Shown here piece by piece: positions 3,276-54,025 of a stretch of 64,000 nt of DNA. Under the pieces are notes generated by a model that saw nothing but the letters and a program-made list of their open reading frames with translations, was not told where the DNA came from and made no database searches. Source of the DNA: a virus. Within the stretch, counting starts at the first letter, position 1; the number at the start of each line of letters is the position of its first letter. A program made the position numbers and the translations under genes. The stretch spans positions 34,092 through 98,091 of the IMG/VR virus record IMGVR_UViG_3300028299_000132. One strand, 5' to 3'.

Positions 3276-4504
3276 AGATATTTAGACATTAATTTTAATA
3301 GTTCTCCTCTATTTATTGGTTTTGATATGTACTCATTACATCCTAATTTCATCATACGGTCTTTATCATCCATGTACGCGAACGCGGATTGAACTATGAT
3401 TGGTATATTATTTTTATTACCCCTTATTATTTCTATGATTTTATCACCATCAATATCTGGTAATCTTATATCTAACAATAATAAATCATATTTTTTATTT
3501 TTTACCATTTCTAAACATTCCTTTCCTGTTTTAGCCCAATCTAAATTACATAATGTTGAATGTAATATTTCTCGTATTAGATTAAAATTATCTTTTATAT
3601 CCTCAGTAATAAGTATTTCTTTATGGATAAAATCATAATCAATTAACTTTTCAGATTTTTCTATTTTTTCCTCACTTACTTCAACTGGTAAAATAAAATA
3701 AAATTCTGTTCCTTTATTTAGTTCTGATTTTACATAAATTTTTCCACCAAGTAATTCTATTATTCCTTTTGATATTGATAATCCAAGTCCAGTTCCTTTT
3801 AAATATTCTTTTCTATTAACTTGGTAAAATCTATTAAAAATTTCTTCTTGATCTTCTTCACTTATACCAATCCCAGTGTCTTTAACATAGAATTTTATAT
3901 TATTATTTTCTACAATTTCACATCCATATTCAATAAATCCTTTATCCGTGAATTTTATTGAATTACTTATTAGATTATCAATCACTTGTTTTAATCTAGT
4001 TCTATCTGAAATAATATTACAATCATCTAAATCTTCTGGTAAATAATATAATAATTTTATTTTTTTATTTAGTAATTTTTGATTTATTGAAAACGATTCA
4101 TATATTTCTTCAATTAAATTATATAAAGAAAATGATATTTTTTCTAATCTTAACTCACCGACTTCTATTTTAGAAAAATCAATTATATCATTTATTAATG
4201 ACATTAATTGACTCCCATTTTTATTTATAACATCTAGATATTTTTTTATTTGTTGTTCATTGAATCCATTTGTTGTTAATAATTCAGAAAATCCTATTAT
4301 ACTATTCATAGGAGTTCTTATTTCATGACTCATATTCGCTAAGAACATTGATTTGAGTCTATCGGATTTTTCAGCTTTTTCTTTTTCTTCTTTTAATCTT
4401 TCGTTTTTCTCTGTTAACTCCTTAATAATTTCTCTTAACTCTAATTCTAATTCTCTAATCTCATTTTCTTTCTTATGTTCAAGAAATTCTTTACCATTAG
4501 CCAT
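3272..4504 (-). CDS. Soluble hybrid histidine kinase (HisKA-HATPase-receiver)
   Basis: 410 residues. Residues 8-50 are a charged coiled coil with no membrane segment. The HisKA phospho-acceptor is MSHEIRTP with His60. The HATPase_c domain shows the N box (NLISNSIKF), G1 (DTGIGI), F box (FNRFYQ) and G2 (GTGLGLSISKGIIELLGG). A receiver domain follows (EILITEDIKDN, LLLLDIRLPDIDG with the phospho-acceptor Asp, QSAFA, YISKPI). All key residues are present, so an active His-Asp phosphorelay is likely. It lacks any sensor domain or output domain. Two-component kinases are common in Bacteroidota but very rare in phages. It could rewire host signalling or be a recent host acquisition; base composition looks like its neighbours. 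Confidence 0.92.
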   Translation of the reverse strand: MANGKEFLEHKKENEIRELELELREIIKELTEKNERLKEEKEKAEKSDRLKSMFLANMSHEIRTPMNSIIGFSELLTTNGFNEQQIKKYLDVINKNGSQLMSLINDIIDFSKIEVGELRLEKISFSLYNLIEEIYESFSINQKLLNKKIKLLYYLPEDLDDCNIISDRTRLKQVIDNLISNSIKFTDKGFIEYGCEIVENNNIKFYVKDTGIGISEEDQEEIFNRFYQVNRKEYLKGTGLGLSISKGIIELLGGKIYVKSELNKGTEFYFILPVEVSEEKIEKSEKLIDYDFIHKEILITEDIKDNFNLIREILHSTLCNLDWAKTGKECLEMVKNKKYDLLLLDIRLPDIDGDKIIEIIRGNKNNIPIIVQSAFAYMDDKDRMMKLGCNEYISKPINRGELLKLMSKYL

Positions 4505-4950: not shown

Positions 4951-5303
4951 TAACCTCTAATGTTTTTTAATAATCCATTCATTGAACTTCCAAAAAACGC
5001 TGCTGGATCAACTTGTTCAATTGGTTCATTTGTAGCTCTAACTGGTTTATGAGAGTTCATAGAATAAGGACTTGTTTTGAAATCTCCATAATAATCATAT
5101 TTACTAGTTTTTTGACCATTTCTCATTATTTCAATATTATGAGAAAAATGTTGTTCCATCAAACTTGTATCATCCTGTATAACAGTTGGTTGTGTTGGTT
5201 CAACATTTTGAAAACTATTTACCTGATTATCAAAATATTGACTTAACGCTTCGTGTTCACTATTTCGTCTAGTTATCTTAAAATTTCCCATTATTCTCTC
5301 CAT
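4950..5303 (-). CDS. Hypothetical protein, Q/N-rich (117 aa)
   Basis: Polar, apparently extended protein (SQYFDNQVNSFQNVEPTQP, YDYYGDFKTSPYSMNSHKP) with no predicted catalytic site, membrane segment or head tag. The start could be the first ATG or MGNFKITRR four codons later; the second gives a better fit to the gap after the upstream stop. It lies between two small genes with single-base spacings, so it belongs to the same leftward transcript. Confidence 0.6.
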   Translation of the reverse strand: MERIMGNFKITRRNSEHEALSQYFDNQVNSFQNVEPTQPTVIQDDTSLMEQHFSHNIEIMRNGQKTSKYDYYGDFKTSPYSMNSHKPVRATNEPIEQVDPAAFFGSSMNGLLKNIRG

Positions 5304-5304
5304 A

Positions 5305-5781
5305 TTATCCTCTTGTATTTTGTATAATAAGTTTTATCATATCTAGTCTAATATCATCTGTACACCAGTATCCTAACTCTTCATTATAGTCCAATTCTAT
5401 AAAGTATGAGGTAATCATATCATATTCCTGAAATGTGATTTTTATTATCTCTCCACTAGGAATAAACAACAAATCTATAAAATCATCATTTTTCATTTTC
5501 TTTTTCATATTTTTACCATTACGATAAATTGACTCAAATATACTATTATTTTCCCTATATTTCAATTCTTTTGTGAATATTTCTATGAGATTTTTCCCAC
5601 GATTCTTACCATATACTTTAATATGTTTTTGAACATACGGAATGAGATTATTTAACTGACTATTTGTTATATTTTTTAATTTTATTCTTCTACCTTCTTT
5701 GGTTGACCAAACAAAATCATTTCTCAATTTAAGGAATTTATCATCAAAATCTATATCTTCAAATAATTTTAAATATTTCAT
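5305..5781 (-). CDS. Head-tagged protein with C-terminal PSGE domain
   Basis: 158 residues. Begins MKYLKLFEDIDFDDKFLKL, a full head tag with the first part of the acidic segment. The C-terminal 55 residues (DLLFIPSGEIIKITFQEYDMI...YFIELDYNEELGYW) match the small domain that makes up the five tandem genes at 7423-8823: xPSGE[IV]hxh, a short helix, then a strand with aromatic residues. So this protein is a fusion of a tagged basic middle part and a PSGE domain. Function of the PSGE domain is unknown. Confidence 0.75.
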   Translation of the reverse strand: MKYLKLFEDIDFDDKFLKLRNDFVWSTKEGRRIKLKNITNSQLNNLIPYVQKHIKVYGKNRGKNLIEIFTKELKYRENNSIFESIYRNGKNMKKKMKNDDFIDLLFIPSGEIIKITFQEYDMITSYFIELDYNEELGYWCTDDIRLDMIKLIIQNTRG

Positions 5782-5785
5782 ATTC

Positions 5786-6751
5786 TTATTTTACAATTTT
5801 TAAAAATAGATCAAATTTTATTTCCTTTCTACCATCTTTAGTATAACTTCCCGAACTTGGTGAATAGTATCCACCAATAGTATAATTATAATTAATATCC
5901 CAATTCCCCCATTTTATTGATTGTAATACCCTCTTATTTTTTTCTGTTACTTTAATACACCAATTTTGTGGTACTTTTGGTTTTGGTTCTTCTTCTTCAT
6001 ATTCCCAATCATTTTCATCAAAATCTATACTTTCCTTTATATTACCAATTACTGTAATTCTATCATCTCCTATTAATGATATATTATCCCCACTATTGAC
6101 AACTTTACAGAATTCTATTCTAGGATAATCGTAGTTATTGTATTCTGGTACTAATGATGGCACCTTAAATTCTTTGACAGAAATCTTTCTCCATGATTTA
6201 TATATCTTCTCCTCTTTTTTATATTCATATACATGTATTTTTTTACCACTTATATTATCATTTAACCAGTTTATAAATTTGTGAATATCTTTACCTACGT
6301 GTTCATATAATTCATATAATATAAATTCCTCTTTATCAAATGGTTCCTCATCTTCATAATCCCAATCATCAAAGTCAATTGATTCAGTTATTACTTTTTG
6401 AAAATAATCATCCATTTTTTCATCATCTTCAACAAAAAATTTCCATCCAGAGTGAGGTAGTTCTATTTTTCCCCTAAAAAAATACACTGTAACCTTCTGA
6501 TGTGGATGATTCTTCCTAGTTCTATTAGAAGTATAGGCATCAGTATAGACACCAGTTTTATCTTTTCTTATTCTTTCAATCTTTAATTCTTCACCAACAT
6601 CAAATTCTGACGCGAATCTAAATACGGGGTGTTCATAAGACTTTATACATCTGACTATATCACCAGCTTTAAACTTATCTCCAATTGTTTCTGGTTCATT
6701 TTCCCAATCAAAATCAAAATCTATTTCTTCGTATAATTTAATATATTTCAT
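5786..6751 (-). CDS. Head-tagged protein with three acidic IDFD/EEP modules
   Basis: 321 residues. Begins MKYIKLYEEIDFDFDWENEPE. The same acidic-aromatic segment returns at about 135 (ITESIDFDDWDYEDEEPFDK) and about 245 (IKESIDFDENDWEYEEEEPKP). Between them are beta-rich modules: residues 25-125 (GDKFKAGDIVRCIKSYEHP) look like an SH3-type fold, and 255-321 end in SGSYTKDGRKEIKFDLFLKI. The recurring E-S-IDFD junctions suggest a polyprotein or three fused cargo units, each starting with a possible protease site. A TATATA box lies just upstream. Confidence 0.75.
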   Translation of the reverse strand: MKYIKLYEEIDFDFDWENEPETIGDKFKAGDIVRCIKSYEHPVFRFASEFDVGEELKIERIRKDKTGVYTDAYTSNRTRKNHPHQKVTVYFFRGKIELPHSGWKFFVEDDEKMDDYFQKVITESIDFDDWDYEDEEPFDKEEFILYELYEHVGKDIHKFINWLNDNISGKKIHVYEYKKEEKIYKSWRKISVKEFKVPSLVPEYNNYDYPRIEFCKVVNSGDNISLIGDDRITVIGNIKESIDFDENDWEYEEEEPKPKVPQNWCIKVTEKNKRVLQSIKWGNWDINYNYTIGGYYSPSSGSYTKDGRKEIKFDLFLKIVK

Positions 6752-6816
6752 AGTACAGTTATATATTTAATTTTAATCTCCGTTTTTTAATATATATCAA
6801 AAAACAATATGTATTT

Positions 6817-7437
6817 ATGAATGACGATGAATTAAAGAAAATTAAACTAACAACAAATATTGAAAATCTAAAACAGACAATTAAAGACTTAAAGGATGAG
6901 AGTTCAATGAATATTAATGATTTGATACCAAATAACATATTACCTGGATTAAATATAGAGATATATGATTATGATAAAGATATTGAGTTAATAAAAGAGG
7001 AGTCAGAGGAGACTTTAGAATGTATATCTAGTTTATATTTAAATGATGAAACAATGATGAATAAGAATATAAATCGACTGATAAAAAATGATGCAGATGA
7101 AATAGGTGATATAAAATTTTCATTGTCTTGTGCGAAACGAGGTTTAATAAATTGTATGACACAACTAGACTCTGGTTCGAATGACCCTGAAATGCATAAC
7201 GCTGTTAATTCATACCAAAAAGAAATCAGAGAGTCAAATAAAACAATTCATGATTTATTAAATAAAATGAAGATATTTTATAAAGATTTAAGGGATGAAT
7301 TAAAAACCGATAATAATATAAATGTTGGTAAAGAACTTTTGGATTATGATGGTGATGATTTAAAAATTGTTGATAAATCAGAGATGAATAGATTAATAGA
7401 ACAATATAAAAAAGATCCAACTCTACTTAAAGAATAA
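6817..7437 (+). CDS. Helical hypothetical protein (206 aa)
   Basis: Acidic, almost wholly helical protein with heptad-like stretches (NIENLKQTIKDLKDESS; NSYQKEIRESNKTIHDLLNKM). Two cysteines (LSCAKRGLINC) but no metal site. Size and helical design would suit a small terminase subunit or a scaffold-like protein, but nothing in the sequence proves this. It has its own upstream TATATA element (AATATATATC, near 6790) and is the only rightward gene between 2.2 and 15 kb. It ends convergently with, and overlaps by 15 bases, the PSGE gene at 7423. Confidence 0.7.
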   Translation: MNDDELKKIKLTTNIENLKQTIKDLKDESSMNINDLIPNNILPGLNIEIYDYDKDIELIKEESEETLECISSLYLNDETMMNKNINRLIKNDADEIGDIKFSLSCAKRGLINCMTQLDSGSNDPEMHNAVNSYQKEIRESNKTIHDLLNKMKIFYKDLRDELKTDNNINVGKELLDYDGDDLKIVDKSEMNRLIEQYKKDPTLLKE

Positions 7438-7653
7438 TTCCGTTAATATATTCATTATTTTTTCTCTGTCTTTATCTTCATAAAAATATGAATATATTGG
7501 AATATATTTAATATTCATATAATCTTCCGAGAACGCTACAAAATAAACTAATTTTTCTTGTTTTAGATTATATAATTCAAAATCAGTGATTTCTAATATT
7601 TCTCCACTAGGATATCCAACTAAATCTAATATTTTTTTATTTGATTTCTTCAT
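7423..7653 (-). CDS. PSGE-family small protein 1
   Basis: 76 residues: DLVGYPSGEILEITDFELYNLKQEKLVYFVAFSED, then YMNIKYIPIYSYFYEDKDREKI. It is the last of five tandem paralogues. The shared pattern is hG-x-PSG-[EQ]-[IV]-x3, a helix with a Leu, then a strand ending in an aromatic pair. It overlaps the upstream gene by 17 bases. It ends in TAG, one of few TAG stops in the window; if TAG were read as an amino acid it would gain ten residues before a TAA. Confidence 0.7.
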   Translation of the reverse strand: MKKSNKKILDLVGYPSGEILEITDFELYNLKQEKLVYFVAFSEDYMNIKYIPIYSYFYEDKDREKIMNILTELFFK

Positions 7654-8059
7654 TTACATCCCTAACCTTTTCTATATCATCTTTTATATATACACCATCA
7701 GTACCTCTGAATTTAACCATATATAATATATCACTAGGACTATATATCTTACTTAAATTTCTTCCATTAATTAACTGTCCATCATATTCAATAATATCAA
7801 CTACCTCTCCAACTTTTCCTATTTTCTTGATTCTTACAACAGTACCTTTTTTAATTTCATATAATATTTCTATTATTTCATCATAATCTTCATCATTAAA
7901 TTCCCAATATTCCCCCTCCATACCTACATCGTAATTGATGTTAATATATGGTAATAATATATAAGCTTCATCATTTGTTATTGTTATTATTTGACCACTT
8001 GGTAGTCCAACCAAGATATCATCTTCAAATCTATCATATCTATTTGGATCATAATGCAT
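7637..8059 (-). CDS. PSGE-family protein 2 with extra C-terminal domain
   Basis: 140 residues. The N-terminal half has DILVGLPSGQIITITNDEAYILLPYININYDV, the family motif with Gln in place of Glu. The second half (KKGTVVRIKKIGKVGEVVDIIEYDGQLING) is an SH3/KOW-like beta domain that also resembles the added domain of paralogue 3. Gene overlaps on both sides (17 and 11 bases) show tight coupling. Function unknown. Confidence 0.7.
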   Translation of the reverse strand: MHYDPNRYDRFEDDILVGLPSGQIITITNDEAYILLPYININYDVGMEGEYWEFNDEDYDEIIEILYEIKKGTVVRIKKIGKVGEVVDIIEYDGQLINGRNLSKIYSPSDILYMVKFRGTDGVYIKDDIEKVRDVNEEIK

Positions 8060-8453
8060 CTTGCACTAAAAATATTTTTTGATTATTTAAGTTCCCTTTC
8101 AATAGATTTTCTAGATTGACATAAATCTGTAATTCGAATTCTATACGATTATCACCAAATGTTACAGCGTAACCATCTTTTCCTAACGAACTCGCTATCA
8201 CTCCAGTTATTCTACCATATCCATGTAATTGATGAAAGATTTTATCTCCTATTTTAATATTGTAAAAAATCATACTCTTTATATCCTCCCTCAAATCATC
8301 TCTAAATACATAAGAATCTATTTTTACACCATTAAAATATTCTAAATATTTAACAAATTTTACAAGTACTAAATCATATAAAGACGATTCTCTACATTTC
8401 AAAACCTCTCCACTAGGAATTCCAACGATATCAGTAATTGGCCCTCTTTTCAT
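8049..8453 (-). CDS. PSGE-family protein 3 with extra SH3-like domain
   Basis: 134 residues. ITDIVGIPSGEVLKCRESSLYDLVLVKFVKYLEYF carries the family motif. The C-terminal half (KIGDKIFHQLHGYGRITGVIASSLGKDGYAVTFGDNRIEFELQIYVN) has the pattern of UvrD/CarD-type Tudor/SH3 domains (GD.V.H..hG.G.V), which bind nucleic acid-bound proteins. It overlaps its upstream neighbour as ATGA. Confidence 0.7.
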   Translation of the reverse strand: MKRGPITDIVGIPSGEVLKCRESSLYDLVLVKFVKYLEYFNGVKIDSYVFRDDLREDIKSMIFYNIKIGDKIFHQLHGYGRITGVIASSLGKDGYAVTFGDNRIEFELQIYVNLENLLKGNLNNQKIFLVQDAL

Positions 8454-8611
8454 AAACTAACTTGTCGTATTATATTTTTATTTGTGTCTTTATAAATAAA
8501 ACATTCAAATTCAAAACTCCAATATACTAATTTTCTTTTTAATAAAAAATCTGCACTAGCTTTTTCTTTTTTCATAACCTCACCACTTGGGTATCCATAT
8601 ATTTCAATCAT
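8450..8611 (-). CDS. PSGE-family small protein 4 (53 aa)
   Basis: A minimal family member: MIEIYGYPSGEVMKKEKASADFLLKRKLVYWSFEFECFIYKD and a short tail. It has start-stop overlaps on both sides (ATGA downstream at 8450-8453, and a 4-base overlap with the upstream gene at 8608-8611), which supports it as a real gene despite its size. The short length shows that the domain itself is only about 45 residues. Confidence 0.7.
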   Translation of the reverse strand: MIEIYGYPSGEVMKKEKASADFLLKRKLVYWSFEFECFIYKDTNKNIIRQVSL

Positions 8612-8823
8612 ATTTCATCAATATAAAAAATCTTATACTTATATTCATCTTTTGATATGTACCCGTGAACATCTTTCATATCACCATCAATATCAACAAA
8701 TCTTTTGTATGTTATAAATTTAGTACTAATTAATTTATTTAAATTTCTTCTATTAACTGTAATAACCTCACCACTAGGTAATAATAAAATTTCAAATGTT
8801 TTTTCATCAAATCTTAAAACCAT
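8608..8823 (-). CDS. PSGE-family small protein 5
   Basis: 71 residues: FDEKTFEILLLPSGEVITVNRRNLNKLISTKFITYKRFVDIDGDMKDVHGYISKDEYKYKIFYI. First gene of the tandem PSGE array. It follows the DHH phosphoesterase start-to-end in the same direction, with a 36-base gap. Confidence 0.7.
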   Translation of the reverse strand: MVLRFDEKTFEILLLPSGEVITVNRRNLNKLISTKFITYKRFVDIDGDMKDVHGYISKDEYKYKIFYIDEI

Positions 8824-8859
8824 AGTACAAAATTAATGATTTTTTTTTATAAAAAAAAA

Positions 8860-10224
8860 TCAAAGAGTTCTTATTTGATGAACCATCAAAACTTTTTCAT
8901 TCATAACTCTTTGAATTTTTTTTGGTTCTACTGGTCTATCCCACATCATTGATATACGCCATCTGACACCAGATAAATCATCTATTATTTTATTTTTGAA
9001 TAAATCTATCCATTTTAAACCATTTAAATTACCTGATCCTTCAAAAACTCCCATTATATTTGAAAGATTTCCGATACCTGGATGACCACCAACTTTCGTA
9101 AATATTTTTCTGTAATGAAATTCTTGTCTAAAGAAATCTAAAACATGATGTGTATAATCACCAAGATCTTCAACAATATAACCATCTTTCAATCTAGGTA
9201 ATTCTTCTCTTTGGATATTAGCTATCCCATTTGTATCCGCTACTTGTAAAGATGGTCCAAATTGTAACATAATAAAATCAACTCTGTGCCCTCTTAAACC
9301 TTCTGTGTTTCTTAAATCTTGATTAATTATCGCTCTCGCTCTTAACGCATTTGCCCAAGTACCAGCTGGTACATATGCCATTCTACCAATTATTTGATAT
9401 CCATCTTTTTTAATAACTCCACCACCCCACCATTTATCGTAAAATTCTTTTTGATCATTATATACAACTTTTTGTTCCTTTCCTCTAGTTCTTTCTGACA
9501 TTATTCTAATTCTTTCTCTACCATCTGTTATAAAATCTTTTTCTACACCTCTTCTGTCAACATTATTCTCAGGATATAACATTTTGAAATTAAGGAATAT
9601 ATTTATTATAGATAATGATGCGTTGTGAGCTACCTCTATTAGAGTTCTATAATCACCTCTTTTTATTAATTGATTAAACGCGCCCGCGAAAAATAGTTTT
9701 GGTTTATCAAATTGTCTTATATCATTTAAATTAAAATTCAAAATAGTTTCTATATCAACATCATACATTTGATATTTCGCACCATCTACCATATCAATAA
9801 CATCCAATATTACAGAATCAGTTGGTAATCCTAATTGTAAACATATTCCTTCGTACGCACTGCTTGTTTTTGTTTTTATTGAATTTAGACTCTGTTTTTC
9901 TATATCTCCACCCTTTTCAACAAAAGACCCATGATGGTCAATATAAACATCAACTTCATCATTATCTTCTGCATAATCAAGAGCTATGTTTATATAACGA
10001 TCATCTAATTGTATGTTACGCCACCCTTCCTGGTAATTTACCACACCATATCCAACAATTTCGAATCCATGATTTCGTAGATAATCTCTCATAACAATTG
10101 CACTCATAATTCCATCTAGGTCATCGTGCATGAATATCATACATTGTTTCCCTACTTTACCTTTTTCTATCCAATATTCTTCTGAATTTGTTATTGTAGG
10201 AGCTCCTTCAAATAGTTTTCTCAT
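8860..10224 (-). CDS. DHH/DHHA1 family phosphoesterase
   Basis: 454 residues. Residues 30-40 hold HDDLDGI, followed by ALDYAEDNDEVDVYIDHHGSF (about 82-102), which are the metal-binding Asp and DHH motifs of the RecJ/NrnA family. A second domain near 385-400 has KVGGHPGIGNLSN, the GGHxxxxG substrate loop of DHHA1. Known members degrade single-stranded DNA 5'-3' or short oligonucleotides and pAp; which applies here cannot be told from the sequence. It starts MRKLFEGAP, so even this enzyme has an LFE element at the N-terminus, but one shorter than the usual head tag. Its 5' end overlaps the stop of the HNH gene by 17 bases. Confidence 0.85.
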   Translation of the reverse strand: MRKLFEGAPTITNSEEYWIEKGKVGKQCMIFMHDDLDGIMSAIVMRDYLRNHGFEIVGYGVVNYQEGWRNIQLDDRYINIALDYAEDNDEVDVYIDHHGSFVEKGGDIEKQSLNSIKTKTSSAYEGICLQLGLPTDSVILDVIDMVDGAKYQMYDVDIETILNFNLNDIRQFDKPKLFFAGAFNQLIKRGDYRTLIEVAHNASLSIINIFLNFKMLYPENNVDRRGVEKDFITDGRERIRIMSERTRGKEQKVVYNDQKEFYDKWWGGGVIKKDGYQIIGRMAYVPAGTWANALRARAIINQDLRNTEGLRGHRVDFIMLQFGPSLQVADTNGIANIQREELPRLKDGYIVEDLGDYTHHVLDFFRQEFHYRKIFTKVGGHPGIGNLSNIMGVFEGSGNLNGLKWIDLFKNKIIDDLSGVRWRISMMWDRPVEPKKIQRVMNEKVLMVHQIRTL

Positions 10225-13327: not shown

Positions 13328-15340
13328 TTATTTGTTTGTTGGGGGATTATATGGAAACCATTGTTTATTTTTACCACCACTAGGTGGTGTTCCATTCTTA
13401 TACCAATTCGCTGGTGGTGATATAAAATTTCCAGATACCCAATCACCATCAAAGAAATCACCATAAAAATTTCCATTGTAGAAAGTTCCCCCACTCCATC
13501 CACCATACGCTGTATAATTTCCACCAACTGTTGTTCCAGAGTTAAAGAATGATCCATTATAAAACTTACCATCTAACCAATTCATATATAATTTAGCTGT
13601 AGAATTTTTTATTTTTTCCAATGGTGTACCAAATGACCCATTATTCCAAGTACCACCACTCCAATTTACAATAAATGATGTGGTTATTGTTGAATTGTAT
13701 CTTGGCCCCATATGAATTCCATTAAATACACCGTTCATCCATTTAACCTTTCTAATTATAGAATTATTAACAATTCCATTATTAAATGTTCCATTTTCCC
13801 AATAATTATTATTAAGATATCCACCATTAAATGTACCATTCTCCCATTTATATAGTGCATTCGTGGTATAATATGTCAAACCAGATAATCTATTGTCAAA
13901 TATACCATCATTAAATGTTCCATTTTTCCAATATATTTCAGACAAATATCCACCATTAATTGTGCCACACCACCATGTTGATTTATTTATGGAACCATTA
14001 TAAATAGTCATGCCACTAAGATCACATCCAGTAAAATCACCATTGTTAATTGTTCCACTATAAAAAATTGTATCAAATGTTGGTACAAGTGATACAAACA
14101 CAGAACTCGTTATTGATCTACCAACAACTTTTCCATTATTAAATATACCATTGTACCAGGTAGACGATAAAAAATCTCCATTATTAAATATTCCAGTATA
14201 CCATGTGGAATTTTGAAACATTCCACCATTAAATGTTCCACCACTCCATTCACCATTAAATGTTCCGTCATTGAATGTTCCACCACTCCAATATGATCTT
14301 ATGAAATTTCCATTATTAAATATTCCATTTTCCCATGTTGATCCAGAAAAAGTTCCATTATTAAATATTCCAGTATACCAATACTTATTTATAAATGATC
14401 CAGAATTCCATATTCCATTATTCCAAGATGGTAATCCAAAAAACCCATCATCCCATATCCCATAAATCCATATTACTGAATTATTTATAGAAGATCCACT
14501 GAAATATCCATTATTTATTGTTCCACCAGTAAATATACAATCTGTGAATAGTCCACCATTTATTGTACACGCGGATAACACGCAATCTGTAAAATATCCA
14601 TTGTCTATAGTAGATCCAGATATAAGTTGATTTTTTACATATGTATAACCATATTCATTATTGTTAAAACTGTAATAAAGAGAATAGGATGAATCATTTT
14701 TTGTATTTATAGTTCTATAAAAAGAATCATATTTGTCTGATATATTTATCATTTTAGTTGTTCCACTCAATATAATTGCTTGATAAATGGTTATATCATC
14801 CGCGGTAGATCCAGTTTGTTCATTTAATAGAACATGTTTAAAAACAGCACAATCAATATCACCTTTCAAAAATTCTTGATTATTAACATATATTTTTGTA
14901 ACATAGTGATTATAAATTGATTTATTTCTAAATTTTTCATCAAAATTTCTATTAATTACAAATTGATTTTTATTATTGTTTATATCAATTACTTTATATC
15001 CCTTTACATATGGATGATAATACCAATTTGTACACCCACTTACTTCTATGAGGTTATCTAAAACATATGTTAAATCAGTATAATTCACATTTGTATCACC
15101 CGAAACAGCACAAAAATAAACAATATCACCTATTATTAAATTTGAGTTTACTCTTGTTGTTAATCTCATTTTACCATTATCTTCACCTATAAATGGTAAC
15201 AATTCAACCGCGTTAGCACTTAATAGATATTCAGTTTTTCTATTTTTATTTAATTGAGTATCTATTCTTGATGTTTTATTATTGACACTTTCAGTTGAAG
15301 TGGAATAAGACCCAAAACTTTCTGCGGATGATATAGTCAT
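13328..15340 (-). CDS. Fibre/adhesin-like protein with WxNGxFNxG repeats
   Basis: 670 residues. The first 230 residues are a globular beta-rich domain. From about 235 to 650 runs a long series of short repeats such as W-ENG-IF-NNG-NF, YSGTINNGDF and WSGGTFNGGMF, with Trp/Phe/Gly every 5-10 residues and Ser-Gly-Gly turns. This periodicity fits a right-handed beta-solenoid. No lipoprotein or secretion signal, and no lyase motif is seen. A tail fibre, spike or surface-binding protein is the natural reading. The repeats are also visible in the DNA but are too diverged to be recent duplications. Confidence 0.7.
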   Translation of the reverse strand: MTISSAESFGSYSTSTESVNNKTSRIDTQLNKNRKTEYLLSANAVELLPFIGEDNGKMRLTTRVNSNLIIGDIVYFCAVSGDTNVNYTDLTYVLDNLIEVSGCTNWYYHPYVKGYKVIDINNNKNQFVINRNFDEKFRNKSIYNHYVTKIYVNNQEFLKGDIDCAVFKHVLLNEQTGSTADDITIYQAIILSGTTKMINISDKYDSFYRTINTKNDSSYSLYYSFNNNEYGYTYVKNQLISGSTIDNGYFTDCVLSACTINGGLFTDCIFTGGTINNGYFSGSSINNSVIWIYGIWDDGFFGLPSWNNGIWNSGSFINKYWYTGIFNNGTFSGSTWENGIFNNGNFIRSYWSGGTFNDGTFNGEWSGGTFNGGMFQNSTWYTGIFNNGDFLSSTWYNGIFNNGKVVGRSITSSVFVSLVPTFDTIFYSGTINNGDFTGCDLSGMTIYNGSINKSTWWCGTINGGYLSEIYWKNGTFNDGIFDNRLSGLTYYTTNALYKWENGTFNGGYLNNNYWENGTFNNGIVNNSIIRKVKWMNGVFNGIHMGPRYNSTITTSFIVNWSGGTWNNGSFGTPLEKIKNSTAKLYMNWLDGKFYNGSFFNSGTTVGGNYTAYGGWSGGTFYNGNFYGDFFDGDWVSGNFISPPANWYKNGTPPSGGKNKQWFPYNPPTNK

Positions 15341-15415
15341 TAAACTTTTATTTTTTTAGTATATATAAAAACAAAAACATCTATATATGATATATTAAAA
15401 AAATAAAAGATAATA

Positions 15416-15736
15416 ATGAACGATAAGAAGAAACAAGTTATGGAATTATTAAATTTAGCGTTTGTTGACAACTATGAATTTTTTAGAGATACAATTGATA
15501 AGATAAATCTTTTGTTTAAAAAATATAAAATAGATTACAAATATGATTATAATTCTTTTTGTAGAGAATATATTCAAAAATGTATGATTGTTATTGATGA
15601 GAATCCAGATATAGATATATCTGATAATAAATATTTTTTAGTATATGGTGCGATTGCCGCGAGTATGGTCTATGATAAAGAACAGGAAGACAAAGAAAAA
15701 AATAATAAAAAGAATGAATCTACTGATACCGAGTGA
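15416..15736 (+). CDS. Small helical protein, paralogue of 16838-17170
   Basis: 106 residues, helical and acidic. FVDNYEFFRDTIDKINLLFKKY...YDYNSFCREYIQKCMIVIDEN aligns by eye with EEYEDIIKYKFNIEKIL...ISYNDFCIRIRKNIIEKIDKE in the gene on the other side of the DUF4338-like gene. The shared YN-[SD]-FC element is the best anchor. Function unknown; it opens the rightward transcript that leads to gp32. It overlaps the next gene by 23 bases. Confidence 0.65.
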   Translation: MNDKKKQVMELLNLAFVDNYEFFRDTIDKINLLFKKYKIDYKYDYNSFCREYIQKCMIVIDENPDIDISDNKYFLVYGAIAASMVYDKEQEDKEKNNKKNESTDTE

Positions 15737-16841
15737 AAAAGTTAATGAAATTTTAGAAAAACTAATGAATTTCTATTCTAAAGTTCCAACTATACAAGAC
15801 TATTTTCTAGAGAGAAAAAGAGAAAAAGTAAAAGATATTGATTATGAGAAATTTACAGTTGATTTCTTTAATGATAATACGATTCGACCAAAAGATATGG
15901 ATATATCAGTTGATTTAATTAATTCTACTATATTTAATAATTCTGTTCAAATAATAACATCTCTTCCACTAGAATCACAAATAGGTAGACAGATGACGAT
16001 AGGTGTTAAAGAAAACAACACAAATAAATATCTTGGTTTTATAAGATTATCATCACCTGTTCTGACAGTTAAACCTAGAAATGAATTTTTCGGCCAGACT
16101 GTTACACCAAAAATGGTTAATCGTTATATGATAAACGGAGCGGTTATTGTACCTGTACAACCTTTTGGTTATAATTATCTTGGTGGAAAATTGTTAGCGT
16201 TGGTATGTTGTTCTCGTGATATTATTAATATGTTTAATAAAAAATATGATATGGATCTATGTTTTATGGAAACAACATCATTATATGGTGATATCAAGGG
16301 AGTCTCTCAATATGATGGATTAAAACCATATATAAGATATCATGGTATGACAGAATCTAAATTATTTTTATTTCCAAATGAGGATGTTTATTATGAAATA
16401 AGAGATTATATGAGAAAATTATATGGTGAAGAAAAATGGAATGGTAGTCTAGTGGATCCAAAACCATCTGGTCCTAAAATGAGAGAATATACTAAAGTTA
16501 TTCAAATATTAAAATTTCATTTGAAAGAATATAATAAAGATAAATTGGATGAGTTTAATAAGTTTATAGAAAATTCAATGAGATCAAAAACCAAAAAACG
16601 ATATTATTATTCAATGTTTGGATATGATAATGTTAAAGAATACGTTCTATCTGATGGAAAAATAGATTTAATAAAAAGAGAAAATTTTGATAATTATGAG
16701 TTAGATAATTTAATAAAATGGTGGAAAAATAAATCTCAAAATAGATGGGAAAAATTAAATGAAGAAGGAAAAATCAAAAATGAATTAGAAATATATACTA
16801 CTGAAAATATTGATACAAAAAATCATAATATAATAAGATGA
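15714..16841 (+). CDS. DUF4338 (DruA-like) domain protein
   Basis: 375 residues from the ATG at 15714 (NLLIPSEKVNEIL); the longer frame upstream overlaps the previous gene fully and is rejected. Residues 85-245 carry KYLGFIRLSSPVLTVKPRNEF, VPVQPFGYNYLGGKLLAL, CFMETTSLYGDIKGVSQYDGL and YHGMTESK, the order of conserved blocks I associate with DUF4338, the domain also found in the Druantia defence protein DruA. In phages such proteins occur without other Druantia genes, so a replication or recombination role near gp32 is as likely as defence. Assignment is by pattern only. Confidence 0.5.
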   Translation: MNLLIPSEKVNEILEKLMNFYSKVPTIQDYFLERKREKVKDIDYEKFTVDFFNDNTIRPKDMDISVDLINSTIFNNSVQIITSLPLESQIGRQMTIGVKENNTNKYLGFIRLSSPVLTVKPRNEFFGQTVTPKMVNRYMINGAVIVPVQPFGYNYLGGKLLALVCCSRDIINMFNKKYDMDLCFMETTSLYGDIKGVSQYDGLKPYIRYHGMTESKLFLFPNEDVYYEIRDYMRKLYGEEKWNGSLVDPKPSGPKMREYTKVIQILKFHLKEYNKDKLDEFNKFIENSMRSKTKKRYYYSMFGYDNVKEYVLSDGKIDLIKRENFDNYELDNLIKWWKNKSQNRWEKLNEEGKIKNELEIYTTENIDTKNHNIIR

Positions 16842-17170
16842 GATGTCTAATAGACGAGATGGATCAACACTTTGTTGAAGAATATGAAGATATCATAAAA
16901 TATAAATTTAATATAGAGAAAATATTGGATCAAATGGGATTTGATTCGTTCATCTCATACAATGATTTCTGTATAAGAATAAGAAAAAATATTATAGAAA
17001 AAATAGATAAGGAAAATATAAATAAACTAGACAGTACGATTTTTTCTGGAGTTTTAAACAAAGTTTTAAGAGATAAAATGAGGGAAGATAAAGAATATGA
17101 GAAAAAACTTGTATCATATTTTAATGATTTTGACCTAATAAATACTATAAATAACATAGATAAGAGTTAG
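16838..17170 (+). CDS. Small acidic helical protein upstream of gp32
   Basis: 110 residues; starts with an ATGA overlap on the previous gene, or possibly at MDQHFVEEY seven codons in. Similar in design to 15416-15736 (see there). In T4 the small late co-activator gp33 and the helicase loader gp59 lie directly before gene 32; position and size invite comparison with gp33, but I see no sequence evidence for it. The gene ends in TAG; reading that TAG would add eight residues only. Confidence 0.55.
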   Translation: MRCLIDEMDQHFVEEYEDIIKYKFNIEKILDQMGFDSFISYNDFCIRIRKNIIEKIDKENINKLDSTIFSGVLNKVLRDKMREDKEYEKKLVSYFNDFDLINTINNIDKS

Positions 17171-17266
17171 AAAAATTACTATATATTTTTGTGATTATTT
17201 TAAAACTTTTTTATTTTTTAATAATACAATAACAAGTCAATTCTAAGCTTAAATAGATTTGAATTA

Positions 17267-17285
17267 ATGAAAGCTTACCTTTCAT
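17267..17285 (+). promoter_or_regulatory. Leader hairpin before the gp32 gene
   Basis: Perfect 7-bp stem ATGAAAG / CTTTCAT with loop CTTAC, 21 bases upstream of the gp32 start, in a 136-base untranslated stretch. T4 gp32 represses its own translation by binding a structured leader; this hairpin is a candidate equivalent. The AAGCTT palindrome occurs once before and once within it, which could allow alternative pairing. Confidence 0.4.
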
Positions 17286-17306
17286 CAAAAAACAATTAAA
17301 GTCCTT

Positions 17307-18272
17307 ATGGAAAAAAATTATTTAGACGACAGCTTTTTGTTTGAAACAACAGAAGAGTCACAACAACAAGAACTTTCTTTTTTAGATAAAGAAAGAAGAA
17401 ATCAAGATGGTATTTATCGTCCAACGTTAGATCAAGCGAAAGACGCTAAAGAGGGTTACAAATCCACAATCAGATTTATCAGAAACATCTCAAGAGATGG
17501 TAGAATCGGCCCAGCGGCTATTGAAAAACATATTCATTATGTTGATCTTCCAAATCACGCTGATGTTAGAGGTTACTATGAATGTGGTAAAAATTTATCA
17601 CCAAAATGTGATCTTTGCACATTTTACTGGAAGCTCGCGAAATCTAACAACCAAGCGGATGTTGAAAAAGCAGATCTTATTGGCAGAACAACCAAATATT
17701 ACAGTTATGTAATGATTTTAGAAGACGAACAACAACTAGAATTAGTTGGAAAAATTATGATTTTTTCTTATGGATATCAAATCAAAGAAAAAATTGAAGC
17801 GGAAAGAAAAGGTGAAGTAGAAGAAAAATGTAACATTTTTGATTTTGTCACTGGTAAAGATTTCAGACTTATTATTAAAGAAAAGACAAGAAGAAATAAT
17901 AAGGCTGTACCAACTTACGAATTTAGTCAATTTAGATCAGAATCACCTATTAAAATCTACAACGAAAAAACACAGAAATTTGTTGAAGCGAAAGTAGATG
18001 ACGAAGGTAAAATTTCTGATGTTAAATGGCAACAAAAAATCAAGGAAACTATTCTTGGTAGAGACGAAAACGTTAATATTGAAGATCATGAACCACAACC
18101 TTGGGATGATGAAACTCAAAATAAAGTAGAAAAAGTTATTTCTATTTTATCGGGTGAAGATATTGACTTCGCGGAAGAATCTATCCGTGTAGCTGAAAAA
18201 TCACCATCCACATTTGATGAAGATAGTGGTGACGATACAGTTGATGATTTCTTTGATTTTGATGATAATTAA
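17307..18272 (+). CDS. 32: Single-stranded DNA-binding protein, T4 gp32-like
   Basis: 321 residues. The N-terminal segment is followed by the core: KEGYKSTIRFIRN, then a zinc site made of NHADV and YYECGKNLSPKCDLC (His plus three Cys, as in T4 gp32), then OB-fold sequence with TKYYSYVMILED and GKIMIFSYGYQIKEKIE. The last 25 residues are strongly acidic and end DDTVDDFFDFDDN, the interaction tail that contacts polymerase, helicase loader and other replication proteins. Length matches T4 gp32 (301). It uses more C-ending codons than its neighbours, as expected for a highly expressed gene, and it has its own leader and terminator. Confidence 0.93.
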   Translation: MEKNYLDDSFLFETTEESQQQELSFLDKERRNQDGIYRPTLDQAKDAKEGYKSTIRFIRNISRDGRIGPAAIEKHIHYVDLPNHADVRGYYECGKNLSPKCDLCTFYWKLAKSNNQADVEKADLIGRTTKYYSYVMILEDEQQLELVGKIMIFSYGYQIKEKIEAERKGEVEEKCNIFDFVTGKDFRLIIKEKTRRNNKAVPTYEFSQFRSESPIKIYNEKTQKFVEAKVDDEGKISDVKWQQKIKETILGRDENVNIEDHEPQPWDDETQNKVEKVISILSGEDIDFAEESIRVAEKSPSTFDEDSGDDTVDDFFDFDDN

Positions 18273-19369: not shown

Positions 19370-20572
19370 TTAAACAAGTTCCTTCTCTTTCAACGCTTCA
19401 ACGCCTGTGCCATCAAATGATGGTCTTATTTTGGCTCTGCGTTTGTAATCGGATGTTCCACCCGATATATTTTTTCTACATCCTTCATTGAGAATGTTGA
19501 TTGCTGCATTTATATCTCTATCAAGAATTTCGCCACACTCTTTACAAGTCCAAGTTCTATCTTTTAATGTTAAAGAACTATTGATATAACCACATTTAGA
19601 ACAGGTTTTACTTGAAGGAAAAAACCTATCTATATGTACGATTTCTTTATCATTCCATTCTGCTTTGTATGTTAAAATATCAATGAATTTACCCCAACTA
19701 ACATCACCAATGGATTTTGCTAATTTATGGTTTTTCATCATTCCTTTTACATTCAAATCTTCAAGATAGATTTTATCAAATTGATTTACAAGGTTTAATG
19801 TAGTTTTATGAATTAAATCCATTCTTGAATTGGTTATTTTTTCGTGGATTTTTGATACTTTAACTCTTTTCTTTTCATAATGGTTACTACCTTTTATTTT
19901 TCTTGATAGATGTTTTTGATTTTTGGATAAAAGTCTTTCATAGTGTTTAAGAAATCTATGGTTCTTGATTTTCGTTCCATTAGATAACACTAAAAAATCT
20001 TTTATTCCTAAATCTATTCCTACTGAATTTCCAGTTTTAACTGATGGAGTATATTCCTTTTCAGTTAGAATTGAAACAAAATACTTTCCAGTAGGGGTTT
20101 TACTTAATGTTGCTTTTTTTATTTTTCCTTTAATCTCTCGTTCCATTATCATTTTTATTCCATCATTAAATTTAGGAAAGTATATTTTATTTTCCTCATT
20201 TTTAACATGTTGTGGTACGGTAAATGAATTTCTTGATTTTTTTGACTTAAAACGAGGAAATTGAGTTCTTTTATTAAAGAAATTTTGATATGACATTTCC
20301 AAACATTTTAATGAATACTGGAGTGTTTGTGAATTAATTTCTTTCAACCATTCAGTTTTTTCATTCTTTTTTAATTTAGTTAAATAACCTGATTGTTTAT
20401 TATAAGTAATTGATTTTTTGTTATTTAAGTATTCTTCTTTTCTTTGGTTAAGGAAGTAATTATACACATATCTAACTGAACCAAAATGTTTATTTAAAAG
20501 AACTTCTTGTTCTTTTGTTGGGTTCAATCTAAATTTGTATGTATATTTAATTTCTTTCATATAATTATTCAA
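19370..20572 (-). CDS. tnpB: TnpB RNA-guided nuclease, complete
   Basis: 400 residues, normal for TnpB. N-terminal helix-turn-helix (NKHFGSVRYVYNYFL), the RuvC Asp in SVGIDLGIKDF, the Glu in KIYLEDLNVKGM, a C4 zinc finger (CSKCGY...CKECG) and the last Asp in LDRDINAAINIL are all present, so it should be an active omega-RNA-guided DNA endonuclease. It ends GTGVEALKEKELV. Codon use differs from the phage genes: it lacks their C-before-GCN habit (ATTAATGCAGCA here), which fits recent arrival. Confidence 0.92.
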   Translation of the reverse strand: MNNYMKEIKYTYKFRLNPTKEQEVLLNKHFGSVRYVYNYFLNQRKEEYLNNKKSITYNKQSGYLTKLKKNEKTEWLKEINSQTLQYSLKCLEMSYQNFFNKRTQFPRFKSKKSRNSFTVPQHVKNEENKIYFPKFNDGIKMIMEREIKGKIKKATLSKTPTGKYFVSILTEKEYTPSVKTGNSVGIDLGIKDFLVLSNGTKIKNHRFLKHYERLLSKNQKHLSRKIKGSNHYEKKRVKVSKIHEKITNSRMDLIHKTTLNLVNQFDKIYLEDLNVKGMMKNHKLAKSIGDVSWGKFIDILTYKAEWNDKEIVHIDRFFPSSKTCSKCGYINSSLTLKDRTWTCKECGEILDRDINAAINILNEGCRKNISGGTSDYKRRAKIRPSFDGTGVEALKEKELV

Positions 20573-47446: not shown

Positions 47447-48514
47447 TTAAATTTTAATGTATTTAAATTCGTGTTGGTATTCAATTTTCTTTAAAACTTC
47501 AAAGATTAAATCTTCAGTTTTTTTAATATCTTCAATATCAACAGTTTCCACTGTTGTGTGCATATATTTCAAAGGAAGTGATATCAAACAAGATGGAACT
47601 CCACCTACGGAGTACGCGAAAGAATCAGTGTCGGTTCCTGTTGAACGACTACAAACTTTTCTTTGAAAATCAATCTTTTGTTTTGTTGCGACTCCCTCAA
47701 CCAATTCAAGGAGTTTTTGTTGAATCGGTGCACCATATGTTAAAACTGGTCCTTTACCGCAACGAATATCACCATTTTTCATTTTTTCCATCATTGGTGT
47801 TGTTGTATCGTGTGTTACATCAAGAATTAACGCTGCGTTTGGACGAATTGTTTCCACAATCATTCTAGAACCTCTAAGTCCAACTTCTTCTTGTACCGCG
47901 TTAACAACATATAAACCAAATGGTAATTTCACTCCTTCTTCTCTTAGTCGTTTAACAACCTGTGTTAGAATATAACCACCCATTTTGTTGTCTAATGCAC
48001 GACCAGTATAGAATTTATTATTCATTTTTGTTAATTCATCTGGATATGTGACTAAACACCCAACATAAATTCCTGATGATTCAACATCCTTTTTTGATGT
48101 AAATCCACAGTCAATAAAGATATTATCCGCGGATGCGTGAGTTTCTTTGGTACCAGTACCTCTTGTATGAATCGCTGGCCAGCCAAAGAATCCAGGTATT
48201 AGTCCATTTTTAGTATGGATATTAACTCTTTTAGATGGTGCTATTTGATGATCTGCTCCACCATTTTTTTTCACATAGATATATCCTTTATCTGTTATAT
48301 AACTAACAATAAATGATATTTCATCAACATGTGCTTCAATTACTACTTTAAAATCAGAATCTGGATTAATTATACCAACTGCGGTTCCATAATGGTCGGT
48401 TATAAATTTATCAACATAATCCTTCATATAATTTACCCAAATTTGTTGGGATTCATTTTCATATCCACTTGGGGATAGACTGTTTAGATAAAGTTCTAAA
48501 AATTTTTTACTCAT
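47447..48514 (-). CDS. M42-family metallo-aminopeptidase
   Basis: 355 residues, the full family length. Metal ligands and catalytic residues are in place: IEAHVDEISF (His62, Asp64), GRALDNKMGG (Asp175), NAVQEEVGLRG (Glu209/Glu210), LDVTHDT (Asp232) and the final His in LKYMHTTVE. GADHQ in the dimerisation domain and SRSTGTDTDSF also match. M42 enzymes form dodecameric tetrahedral aminopeptidases that finish peptide breakdown. They are very unusual in phages. The gene follows two small membrane proteins and the tRNA in one leftward unit. Confidence 0.93.
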   Translation of the reverse strand: MSKKFLELYLNSLSPSGYENESQQIWVNYMKDYVDKFITDHYGTAVGIINPDSDFKVVIEAHVDEISFIVSYITDKGYIYVKKNGGADHQIAPSKRVNIHTKNGLIPGFFGWPAIHTRGTGTKETHASADNIFIDCGFTSKKDVESSGIYVGCLVTYPDELTKMNNKFYTGRALDNKMGGYILTQVVKRLREEGVKLPFGLYVVNAVQEEVGLRGSRMIVETIRPNAALILDVTHDTTTPMMEKMKNGDIRCGKGPVLTYGAPIQQKLLELVEGVATKQKIDFQRKVCSRSTGTDTDSFAYSVGGVPSCLISLPLKYMHTTVETVDIEDIKKTEDLIFEVLKKIEYQHEFKYIKI

Positions 48515-48925: not shown

Positions 48926-48942
48926 TATTATTTGATTATCAG

Positions 48943-49017
48943 TGAGTTGAGTGGGATTTGAACCCACGACAAAGTGTTTTAGGGGCACTTGTTCTAACCA
49001 GACTGAACTATCAACTC
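48943..49017 (-). tRNA. tRNA with CTA anticodon (amber-suppressor type)
   Basis: Folded by hand from the minus strand: acceptor GAGTTGA/TCAACTC (7 of 7), T8 A9, D-stem GTTC/GAAC with loop AGTCTGGTTA, T-stem GTGGG/CCCAC with loop TTCAAAT, short variable region TTGTC, discriminator A, no encoded CCA. The anticodon arm is AAGTG-CCCCTAAAA-CACTT, with CTA in the centre, so it should read UAG. Oddities: position 33 is C where U is nearly universal, and the 31-39 pair is C-A. Identity of the amino acid cannot be read; Gln is the precedent in other phages with this anticodon. Confidence 0.85.
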
Positions 49018-49028
49018 ATTATTTTATT

Positions 49029-49036
49029 CAAAGATA
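49029..49036 (-). promoter_or_regulatory. -7 box upstream of the tRNA operon
   Basis: Minus strand TATCTTTG, 11 bases before the first tRNA base. No matching TTTG at -33 (a T/A-only stretch instead), so assignment rests on the -7 element. Confidence 0.5.
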
Positions 49037-49073
49037 TAAAAAATTTTTAATATAAAAAAATTTTTTATAAAAA

Positions 49074-49101
49074 TAACAGGGGTATTTTTATACCCCTGTT
49101 A
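49074..49101 (-). terminator. Terminator upstream of the tRNA
   Basis: Stem TAACAGGGGTA / TACCCCTGTTA. On the minus strand it is followed by TTTTTAT. Closes the decayed leftward genes at 49111-49570. Confidence 0.85.
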
Positions 49102-49110
49102 TAGATATTA

Positions 49111-49754: not shown

Positions 49755-49895
49755 AAAAATGTCAAAAGAAAACCACGATGTCTTTAGCATCGTGGATGAA
49801 TTTTGACGAACATCATTCAAATTATTTTTGGAAAAATATGACTTTTTCATTTTAATATATATTTATAATAAAGAAAACGAAAAAAGTTGTATAAA

Positions 49896-51122
49896 ATGAA
49901 AAAGAGTTATTCTATAAGACTATTTCCGATTAAAGAACAGATAAGTCAATTAAATGAATTATCTGAAATAAGGAAAGATATATGGAATAAACTCATTGAT
50001 GTTCAACAAAAAGAATATGAAACAAACAAAACTATATTAAACAAATTCGATTTGAATAATTTACTTCCAGAATTAAAAGAACAATATATAAATTGGAAAA
50101 AATTAAATTCAAAAGCCGTTCAAACTATTGCCACAGAAATATACGGTTCATATCGTTCATTTTTCAATTTAATTAAAAAAGATAAAACGGCAAGACCACC
50201 AAGAAAGATAGATTCTGACTATTATCATACTATCGTTTGGAATCAGTCTGGTTGGATTATTCAGAGTAATATAATAACAATTAATAAGATTCCATTTGAA
50301 TATAAATCAAAAATAGATATATCAACATTAGATATAAAAGAAATCAAAATTAAATTTGTAAGAAATAAATGGTTATGTGATTTGATTGTTGAAGAACCAA
50401 TACAATATGAAGATAATCTAAAAATTAAGACTAAAGTTTTAGCAATCGATTTGGGTTTAGAAAAATTAGCAGTAGGTGTTGATAACAAAGGTAAAATGAT
50501 TGTATTGAAGAATAAATCAAAGAAAATAAATGATTATTATCAAAAAGAAATAGCAAAAATACAAAACAAAAGAAGTAAAACCAATAAAGGTTCAAAAAGA
50601 AATTTAAAATTAAAGAAAGTATTAAATAAATGTTACCATAAAAAGAACGAACAGATAAAACAAACTCTACATATTCAGAGTAAATATTTAGTGAATATGA
50701 ACTACAACACAATTGTAGTCGGTGATTTAAGTGTTAAAAATTTAATGAATAGTGAAGGTGTTAATAAAAACAAAAAAGGTATTAGAAAATCTTTTCACAA
50801 ATCTAATATTAATATGTTTTTACAATTTCTTGGTTATAAATGTCAGTTAAAAAACACAAACCTAACCAAGATAAATGAAAATTGGACTACTCAATTAAAT
50901 TGTTTAACTGGAAAGGTATTCAAAGAAAAAATTGAACTTAAAGATAGACAAGTTCAATTATCAGATACAATCACTATTGATCGTGACTTAAATTCAGCCA
51001 TAAACATTCTTAAACGATGGTTTGATAGTCATATTGCTTCTATGAACGAGCCACTTAATATTTTAAGTGTTCTTGATAGATACAACATCTATAAGGAAAC
51101 TACGACATCTTTAGTGTCGTAG
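49896..51122 (+). CDS. tnpB: TnpB-like protein without zinc finger and with altered RuvC motif
   Basis: 408 residues. RuvC Asp in VLAIDLGLEKLA and last Asp in ITIDRDLNSAINIL are present. The middle motif reads TIVVGDLSVKNLM, with Gly where active TnpB usually has Glu (xEDL). The region of the C4 zinc finger reads INENWTTQLNCLTGKVFKEK, with the cysteines lost. It may be a natural subgroup with a shifted acidic residue, or nuclease-impaired, as in TnpB-derived repressors. Its TAG stop lies within the right-end hairpin; an ATG at 49896 is preferred to the TTG three codons earlier. Confidence 0.8.
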   Translation: MKKSYSIRLFPIKEQISQLNELSEIRKDIWNKLIDVQQKEYETNKTILNKFDLNNLLPELKEQYINWKKLNSKAVQTIATEIYGSYRSFFNLIKKDKTARPPRKIDSDYYHTIVWNQSGWIIQSNIITINKIPFEYKSKIDISTLDIKEIKIKFVRNKWLCDLIVEEPIQYEDNLKIKTKVLAIDLGLEKLAVGVDNKGKMIVLKNKSKKINDYYQKEIAKIQNKRSKTNKGSKRNLKLKKVLNKCYHKKNEQIKQTLHIQSKYLVNMNYNTIVVGDLSVKNLMNSEGVNKNKKGIRKSFHKSNINMFLQFLGYKCQLKNTNLTKINENWTTQLNCLTGKVFKEKIELKDRQVQLSDTITIDRDLNSAINILKRWFDSHIASMNEPLNILSVLDRYNIYKETTTSLVS

Positions 51123-53423: not shown

Positions 53424-53711
53424 TCATAGTATTTCCCCACCATTTTCCTTATTCTTTCTAATGAAATCTATACCATTACTATTGGTTATTTCGTAGTCAT
53501 CTAGATTAACTTTTTGTCCATCAATAACCCCAGTATTATCTTCAATATCTGTAACCACTTTATAACCAATCATTCTCATTCTTCTAATAGTGTTAGCTTT
53601 TAAATTATCTGGTTCTGTTTTCTCAGAATTTATTATTCTATCAGACCAATTTTTGAATATTTGTTTTTGGTCACTTTCATTTATAAACTTATTAAAATCT
53701 TTCAATTTCAT
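53424..53711 (-). CDS. Head-tagged small protein (95 aa)
   Basis: MKLKDFNKFINESDQKQIFK (tag ending FINE), then NTIRRMRMIGYKVVTDIEDN and GVIDGQKVNLDDYEITNSNG. The middle resembles a small winged or swivelling domain; no function. ATGA overlap with the amber-containing gene upstream. Confidence 0.7.
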   Translation of the reverse strand: MKLKDFNKFINESDQKQIFKNWSDRIINSEKTEPDNLKANTIRRMRMIGYKVVTDIEDNTGVIDGQKVNLDDYEITNSNGIDFIRKNKENGGEIL

Positions 53712-54025
53712 ATTTCTCTTGGTTTTTTAGAAATCCAATTCCCATTTTTATCTATCCTTTTCATAAAGTTATCTCGCATCTCCTTTTCTCTTTTTGATAT
53801 CTCATCTTTATATACTTTAGATAATTTCATATATTTTTCATATTCTTCTGGTGTTTTAGCTTTATTAGCCTAGTATTCGTAATCAGCTACTATTTCTCCC
53901 AAATGTCGTGTTGATACATTTTTTATATCAATTCCTTTAATATCTTCCGCTTTTATCATTTTGTGTTTTAATTTTGGAGATCTAATCTCATTTATAAAGT
54001 TTTTATAATCTTTTAAAGTTTTCAT
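53708..54025 (-). CDS. Head-tagged protein with in-frame TAG at codon 52
   Basis: MKTLKDYKNFINEIRSPKLK (tag ending FINE), ...HLGEIVADYEY, TAG (53870-53872), ANKAKTPEEYEKYMKLSKVY, ...KNGNWISKKPREI, TGA. Start and stop overlap both neighbouring genes as ATGA (54022-54025 and 53708-53711). The downstream overlap exists only if the whole 105-residue frame is the gene, which makes decoding of TAG likely. Helical, charged, with the C-terminal KKNGNWISKKPRE type common in phage proteins. Confidence 0.7.

Follow-up and report, generated by a model that had tools for sequence, protein, structure and literature searches.

The 64,000-nt stretch of DNA analyzed here (the window), which spans positions 34092-98091 of a 98,091-base IMG/VR record (the contig, a genome fragment), carries a tRNA gene with a CUA anticodon. 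We assign a probability of about 0.6 to the reading that this is a genuine phage tRNA of the amber-suppressor type residing in a huge standard-code phage, probably infecting a member of the Bacteroidota, and not the decoder of a recoded gene set. The contig uses the standard genetic code, and the gene is a further case of a known, still unexplained habit of big standard-code phages to carry CTA tRNAs. The features discussed are collected in Table 1.

Table 1. The CTA tRNA gene, its neighbours and the frame interrupted by TAG (window coordinates)
Feature	Position	Strand	Basis or remark
tRNA gene, 75 nt, anticodon CUA, A73	48943..49017	-	ARAGORN; Rfam tRNA, 61.1 bits
Anticodon C34 U35 A36, reads UAG	48980..48982	-	ARAGORN; covariance-model alignment
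C33 replacing U33	48983	-	sequence
C31 (48985) / A39 (48977) mismatch closing the anticodon loop, 4-bp anticodon stem left	48977..48985	-	sequence; model alignment
TATCTTTG, match to Bacteroidota -7 promoter element TAnnTTTG	49029..49036	-	12-19 nt upstream of tRNA
Intrinsic terminator hairpin upstream of tRNA, 13 pairs then T run	49073..49102	-	
M42 aminopeptidase-like gene	47447..48514	-	Pfam PF05343, E 4.5e-72
Orphan frame, 105 codons, TAG at codon 52 (53870-53872)	53708..54025	-	coding-like on both sides

A minus-strand tRNA with perfect acceptor, D and T stems had been described from the letters alone (the sequence-only reading), and two methods agree on it. ARAGORN calls a gene at 48942-49017, with the anticodon cta at position 36 of the gene, and Rfam RF00005 matches 48943-49017 at 61.1 bits (cut-off 29, E 8.8e-11). 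No mismatch occurs in the acceptor (7 bp), D (4 bp) or T (5 bp) stem, and the CCA end is absent from the gene sequence. The anticodon stands as well, CUA being placed at 34-36 by both the ARAGORN call and the covariance-model alignment. The spacing, with a single base at 26 and a variable loop of five, is standard and supports this placement; decoding of UAG is thus expected. The anticodon arm reads AGUGC-CCCUAAA-ACACU, with four pairs. In the thermodynamic fold C31·A39 is open, and the stem AAGUG/CACUU carries a 9-nt loop with CUA still central (z -2.4). Another anticodon register was considered and rejected, the 9-nt loop of the minimum-energy fold keeping the same centre and the CCU (Arg) register being unpaired.

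U33 is near-universal in tRNAs, where it serves the U-turn of the anticodon; in Sup-CTA tRNAs it is usual, not strictly defining. The window tRNA has the canonical cloverleaf and the CUA at 34-36 of this class, and C33 in place of its U33. Both C33 and the C31-A39 mismatch, noticed in the sequence-only reading, are seen in the sequence and in the model alignment. Exact relatives of the gene were not found in the viral contigs scanned, nor was a closely related phage sharing it, a search via the 420-aa neighbour protein included. In sequence the gene comes closest to further CTA tRNAs of viruses, in a sample enriched for CTA.

The sequence-only reading had joined the tRNA to four or more genes, each with one in-frame TAG, to form a coherent recoding system, and this part does not survive. 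Among ORFs of at least 60 aa (n=135 in the 98-kb contig), coding density is 0.913 with code 11 and reaches 0.921 once TAG is opened and 0.919 once TGA is, the gain of 0.8 points obtained with TAG being close to the 0.6 of the TGA control. Code 15 is recognized by a density rising 5-10% or more once TAG is opened and by TAG no longer acting as a stop; neither is seen here. ORFs end with TAA in 95 cases, TGA in 34 and TAG in 6, the last including the TnpB gene at 49887-51122. The next in-frame stop lies 9, 7, 0, 10, 0 and 2 codons beyond the TAG of these six ORFs, the median read-on being 4.5 codons for TAG-ended and TGA-ended frames alike. All six are therefore ordinary stops, with no more than 10 codons beyond, and code 11 fits the contig throughout, its late tail-sheath gene among the rest. 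TAG junctions flanked on both sides by coding-like sequence number 2 per 98 kb, vs 14 per 636 kb in LR756504, an uncultured huge phage; the rate equals that of a genome in which ARAGORN found no CTA tRNA, and such junctions are not in excess. TAG recoding in the contig was rejected on density, stop use and junction rate.

On the same stop count TAG is rare, yet it is used as an ordinary stop. Its share (6/135) falls short of the 18.1% expected from composition (p 2e-6), and it makes up 4/120 stops in this phage vs 79/771 in LR756504 (Fisher p 0.011). Lower TAG use relative to LR756504 fits a leaky UAG, the effect being modest; TAG depletion is not consistent across the GC classes of the CTA loci, and both points count against our reading. 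TAG depletion as a common trait of contigs with CTA tRNAs was accordingly discarded.

The orphan frame in Table 1, reading MKTLKDYKNFINEI...DYEY*ANKAKTPEEYEKY... around the TAG, is the only one in 98 kb where the codon is convincingly flanked by coding sequence on either side. Homologues, sought to infer the inserted residue, were not found. The frame may represent a gene expressed by read-through, one hit by a nonsense mutation, or a genuine but short gene. Its start (MKTLKDYKNFINE) resembles that of the next gene (53711, MKLKDFNKFINE), the two sharing a repeated N-terminal motif.

DNA similarity of the region is confined to uncultured phages of 635-735 kb, and 27/135 ORFs of the contig have homologues in LR756504. 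These relatives carry 43-62 tRNA genes per genome, and no plain CTA anticodon occurs in the tRNA clusters read of the three. A CTA-like tRNA of LR756504 (ARAGORN 'tcta', 8-nt loop) was set aside, being best read by eye as Arg-UCU and hence no CTA relative. The Bacteroidota-type promoter TTG-N17-23-TAnnTTTG is found upstream of 7/81 genes (0.7 expected), and the best cellular matches of the M42 gene are almost all from Bacteroidota; because of both, the host of this huge phage is probably a member of the Bacteroidota.

A -33 TTG partner for TATCTTTG is absent upstream of the tRNA. The terminator hairpin sets the tRNA apart from the transcription unit before it. The tRNA is followed downstream by two small ORFs and then by the M42 peptidase gene, all on its own strand; the M42 product is ~60% identical to cellular Bacteroidota enzymes. 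The M42 homologue of LR756504 resides about 3-7 kb away from a tRNA cluster, and M42 homologues lie close to tRNA clusters in the huge phages LR756504 and LR745206.

Several other genes of the contig were identified along the way. Pieces of a DNA polymerase B lie left of the window (contig 14194-15309 and 16429-17409, both plus strand), the N-half of an intein ending the first ORF, the C-half starting the second (Pfam Intein_splicing). The two are separated by an HNH/homing endonuclease gene, and contig 14194-17409 likely encodes a split-intein polymerase. GDP-mannose 4,6-dehydratase is split in two by a LAGLIDADG domain (residues 418-489; contig 5048-7225, plus strand), which makes for a probable intein in a gene of sugar-nucleotide metabolism. 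Two TnpB/IS605 OrfB-like genes (window 19370-20572, minus strand, and 49887-51122, plus strand, the second ending in a double TAG), two hybrid histidine kinase/response regulator genes (window 3272-4504, minus strand, and contig 7233-9146, plus strand) and a gene whose product matches both Pfam DruA (Druantia defence family) and a phage family of unknown function (window 15645-16841, plus strand) were also noticed.

Viral CTA tRNAs at large were collected from IMG/VR. A pattern scan leaving positions 31, 33 and 39 free yielded 79 contigs, and ARAGORN confirmed a CTA tRNA in nearly all of them; a second scan, relying on a different D-arm, served as replication with the prediction fixed beforehand, and a C33-only scan was also run. 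Among the 126 loci with a length of 5 kb or more that the three scans recovered, 117 look standard-code and 9 TAG-recoded, as judged from the stretch flanking each tRNA only, so that recoding of late genes elsewhere could escape. A CTA tRNA alone is thus not proof of recoding, most viral contigs with one looking standard-code in this sample.

The C31·A39 mismatch was found in 7/59 non-redundant CTA tRNAs of the first set vs 1/593 other viral tRNAs (p 2.6e-7), and in 11/72 vs 1/183 in the replication set (p 4.7e-6). Pooled, the figures are 18/130 vs 2/773 (p 4e-14), or about 14% of viral CTA tRNAs and 0.3% of the others. A39 itself is present in 73/130 CTA tRNAs vs 149/773 others; given A39, the ratio of C31 to U31 is 18 to 54 in the former and 2 to 146 in the latter. 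None of the 112 other tRNAs with A36-A37-A38 features C31·A39. On a tRNA tree built without the positions tested the trait needs 22 changes (shuffled labels 24.2 on average, 22 or fewer in 19/200). Being scattered over this weakly resolved tree, C31·A39 probably arose many times among viral CTA tRNAs. Its starting point may have been C31-G39, a frequent pair in viral tRNAs of other kinds, with the A39 favoured by CTA tRNAs as the next step.

Of the two features suggested to tune suppression, C31·A39 is a recurrent trait of viral CTA tRNAs, whereas C33, counted in 2/130 of them vs 57/773 other viral tRNAs, is not enriched and was dropped as a mark of suppressor tuning. No other CTA tRNA in the pooled 130 combines C33 with C31·A39. 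The C33-only scan recovered 29 viral CTA tRNAs with C33 and the loop CCCTAAA, most of which keep the U31-A39 pair.

C31·A39 may adjust decoding strength, by analogy with 4-bp anticodon stems (PMC13092985), or act as an anti-synthetase signal, by analogy with the effect of U30·G40 on LysRS (PMC9976931). A broader proposal, which we hold as doubtful, is that the CUA tRNAs of standard-code phages make up a functional class in which C31·A39 is recurrently selected (for decoding strength or to block host synthetases) for deliberate read-through of host UAG stops, the window tRNA with its C33 being an extreme low-efficiency form. Whatever its purpose, C31·A39 offers a testable handle on why phages retain CTA tRNAs.

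The unusual positions of the window tRNA may alternatively denote decay, C33 and C31·A39 together marking loss of function in a relic of a cluster such as the huge relatives carry. The gene is the sole tRNA in the 98-kb contig, vs 43-62 per relative genome, C33 is rare among CTA tRNAs, and no CTA tRNA was found in the three relatives. This is unlikely nonetheless, as the gene scores high against the model and has no flaw in its acceptor, D and T stems. Its closest matches also belong to viral CTA tRNAs (CTA-enriched as that sample is), and C31·A39, recurrent in them, is not decay by itself; the gene thus looks like a family member and not a product of random decay. C33 would be expected to lower decoding, and this, as its rarity (2/130), counts against our reading.

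As a genuine phage tRNA of amber-suppressor type, the molecule would be transcribed and charged by a host synthetase. Its identity elements are A73, G1-C72, U35 and a short variable loop. Bacterial identity tables (PMC9976931) list the Lys and Gln elements, and since GlnRS wants G73 and U1-A72, LysRS ranks first and GlnRS is the weaker candidate; the tRNA would most likely be charged with lysine. It would then insert an amino acid at UAG with low efficiency, mainly at UAG stops of the host, whose protein ends would be disturbed in infected cells, and at few phage UAGs at most. The phage would be buffered, because its genes rarely end in TAG.

A role without any phage codon being read is quite improbable: the RNA would act as a decoy absorbing an anticodon nuclease, or would attack the host by disturbing termination. 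CTA tRNAs do persist without targets in diverse standard-code phages, and authors working on zeta crAss-like phages propose that the host or its defences are weakened by the CTA tRNA (PMC12386605). Most improbable is TAG recoding confined to late genes beyond the contig, in crAss or Lak style. Such recoding is known in some phages (PMC10746230), the contig covers only 98 kb where relatives reach about 635-735 kb, and the orphan frame of Table 1 does contain a TAG. Against this, the one late gene on the contig (tail sheath, 1268 aa, ending at window position 259) has no in-frame TAG, 6/135 ORFs stop at TAG, no RF-1-domain match (release factor, RF2 or other code-switch gene) occurs in the incomplete 98-kb contig, and LR756504 as a whole, as well as sampled stretches of other relatives, are standard-code.

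The crAss-like phages reassigning TAG to Gln, offered as precedent in the sequence-only reading, are the wrong comparison. Code-15 crAss-like and Lak phages (PMC9523058, PMC10746230) share the CTA suppressor tRNA, but their genes are full of in-frame TAG, whereas here TAG is a stop and density stays flat. The loss of one anticodon-stem pair recalls the tRNAs with 4-bp anticodon stems which raise stop-codon readthrough (PMC13092985), those lacking the top pair 27-43, the window tRNA the loop-closing 31-39. Apt precedents are two. Clade 8 of the zeta crAss-like phages has a CTA tRNA and no suppression, and TAG stops are rare in the related Lera group (PMC12386605); the likeness lies in a CTA tRNA without recoding and in rare TAG stops soon backed by another (Lera, ct1yV3, ctE7s22), the difference in that these phages are unrelated and smaller, TGA being recoded in some relatives (PMC12386605). 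The Xanthomonas jumbo phage XacN1 has CUA tRNAs and 18 amber stops, and no read-through targets were found in it (PMC5852040). It is likewise a standard-code jumbo phage with few amber stops, and both its CUA tRNAs feature C31·A39; they differ from the window tRNA in having U33 and an encoded CCA, and in occurring as two copies amid a tRNA set in the terminal repeats of a phage with a Xanthomonas host.
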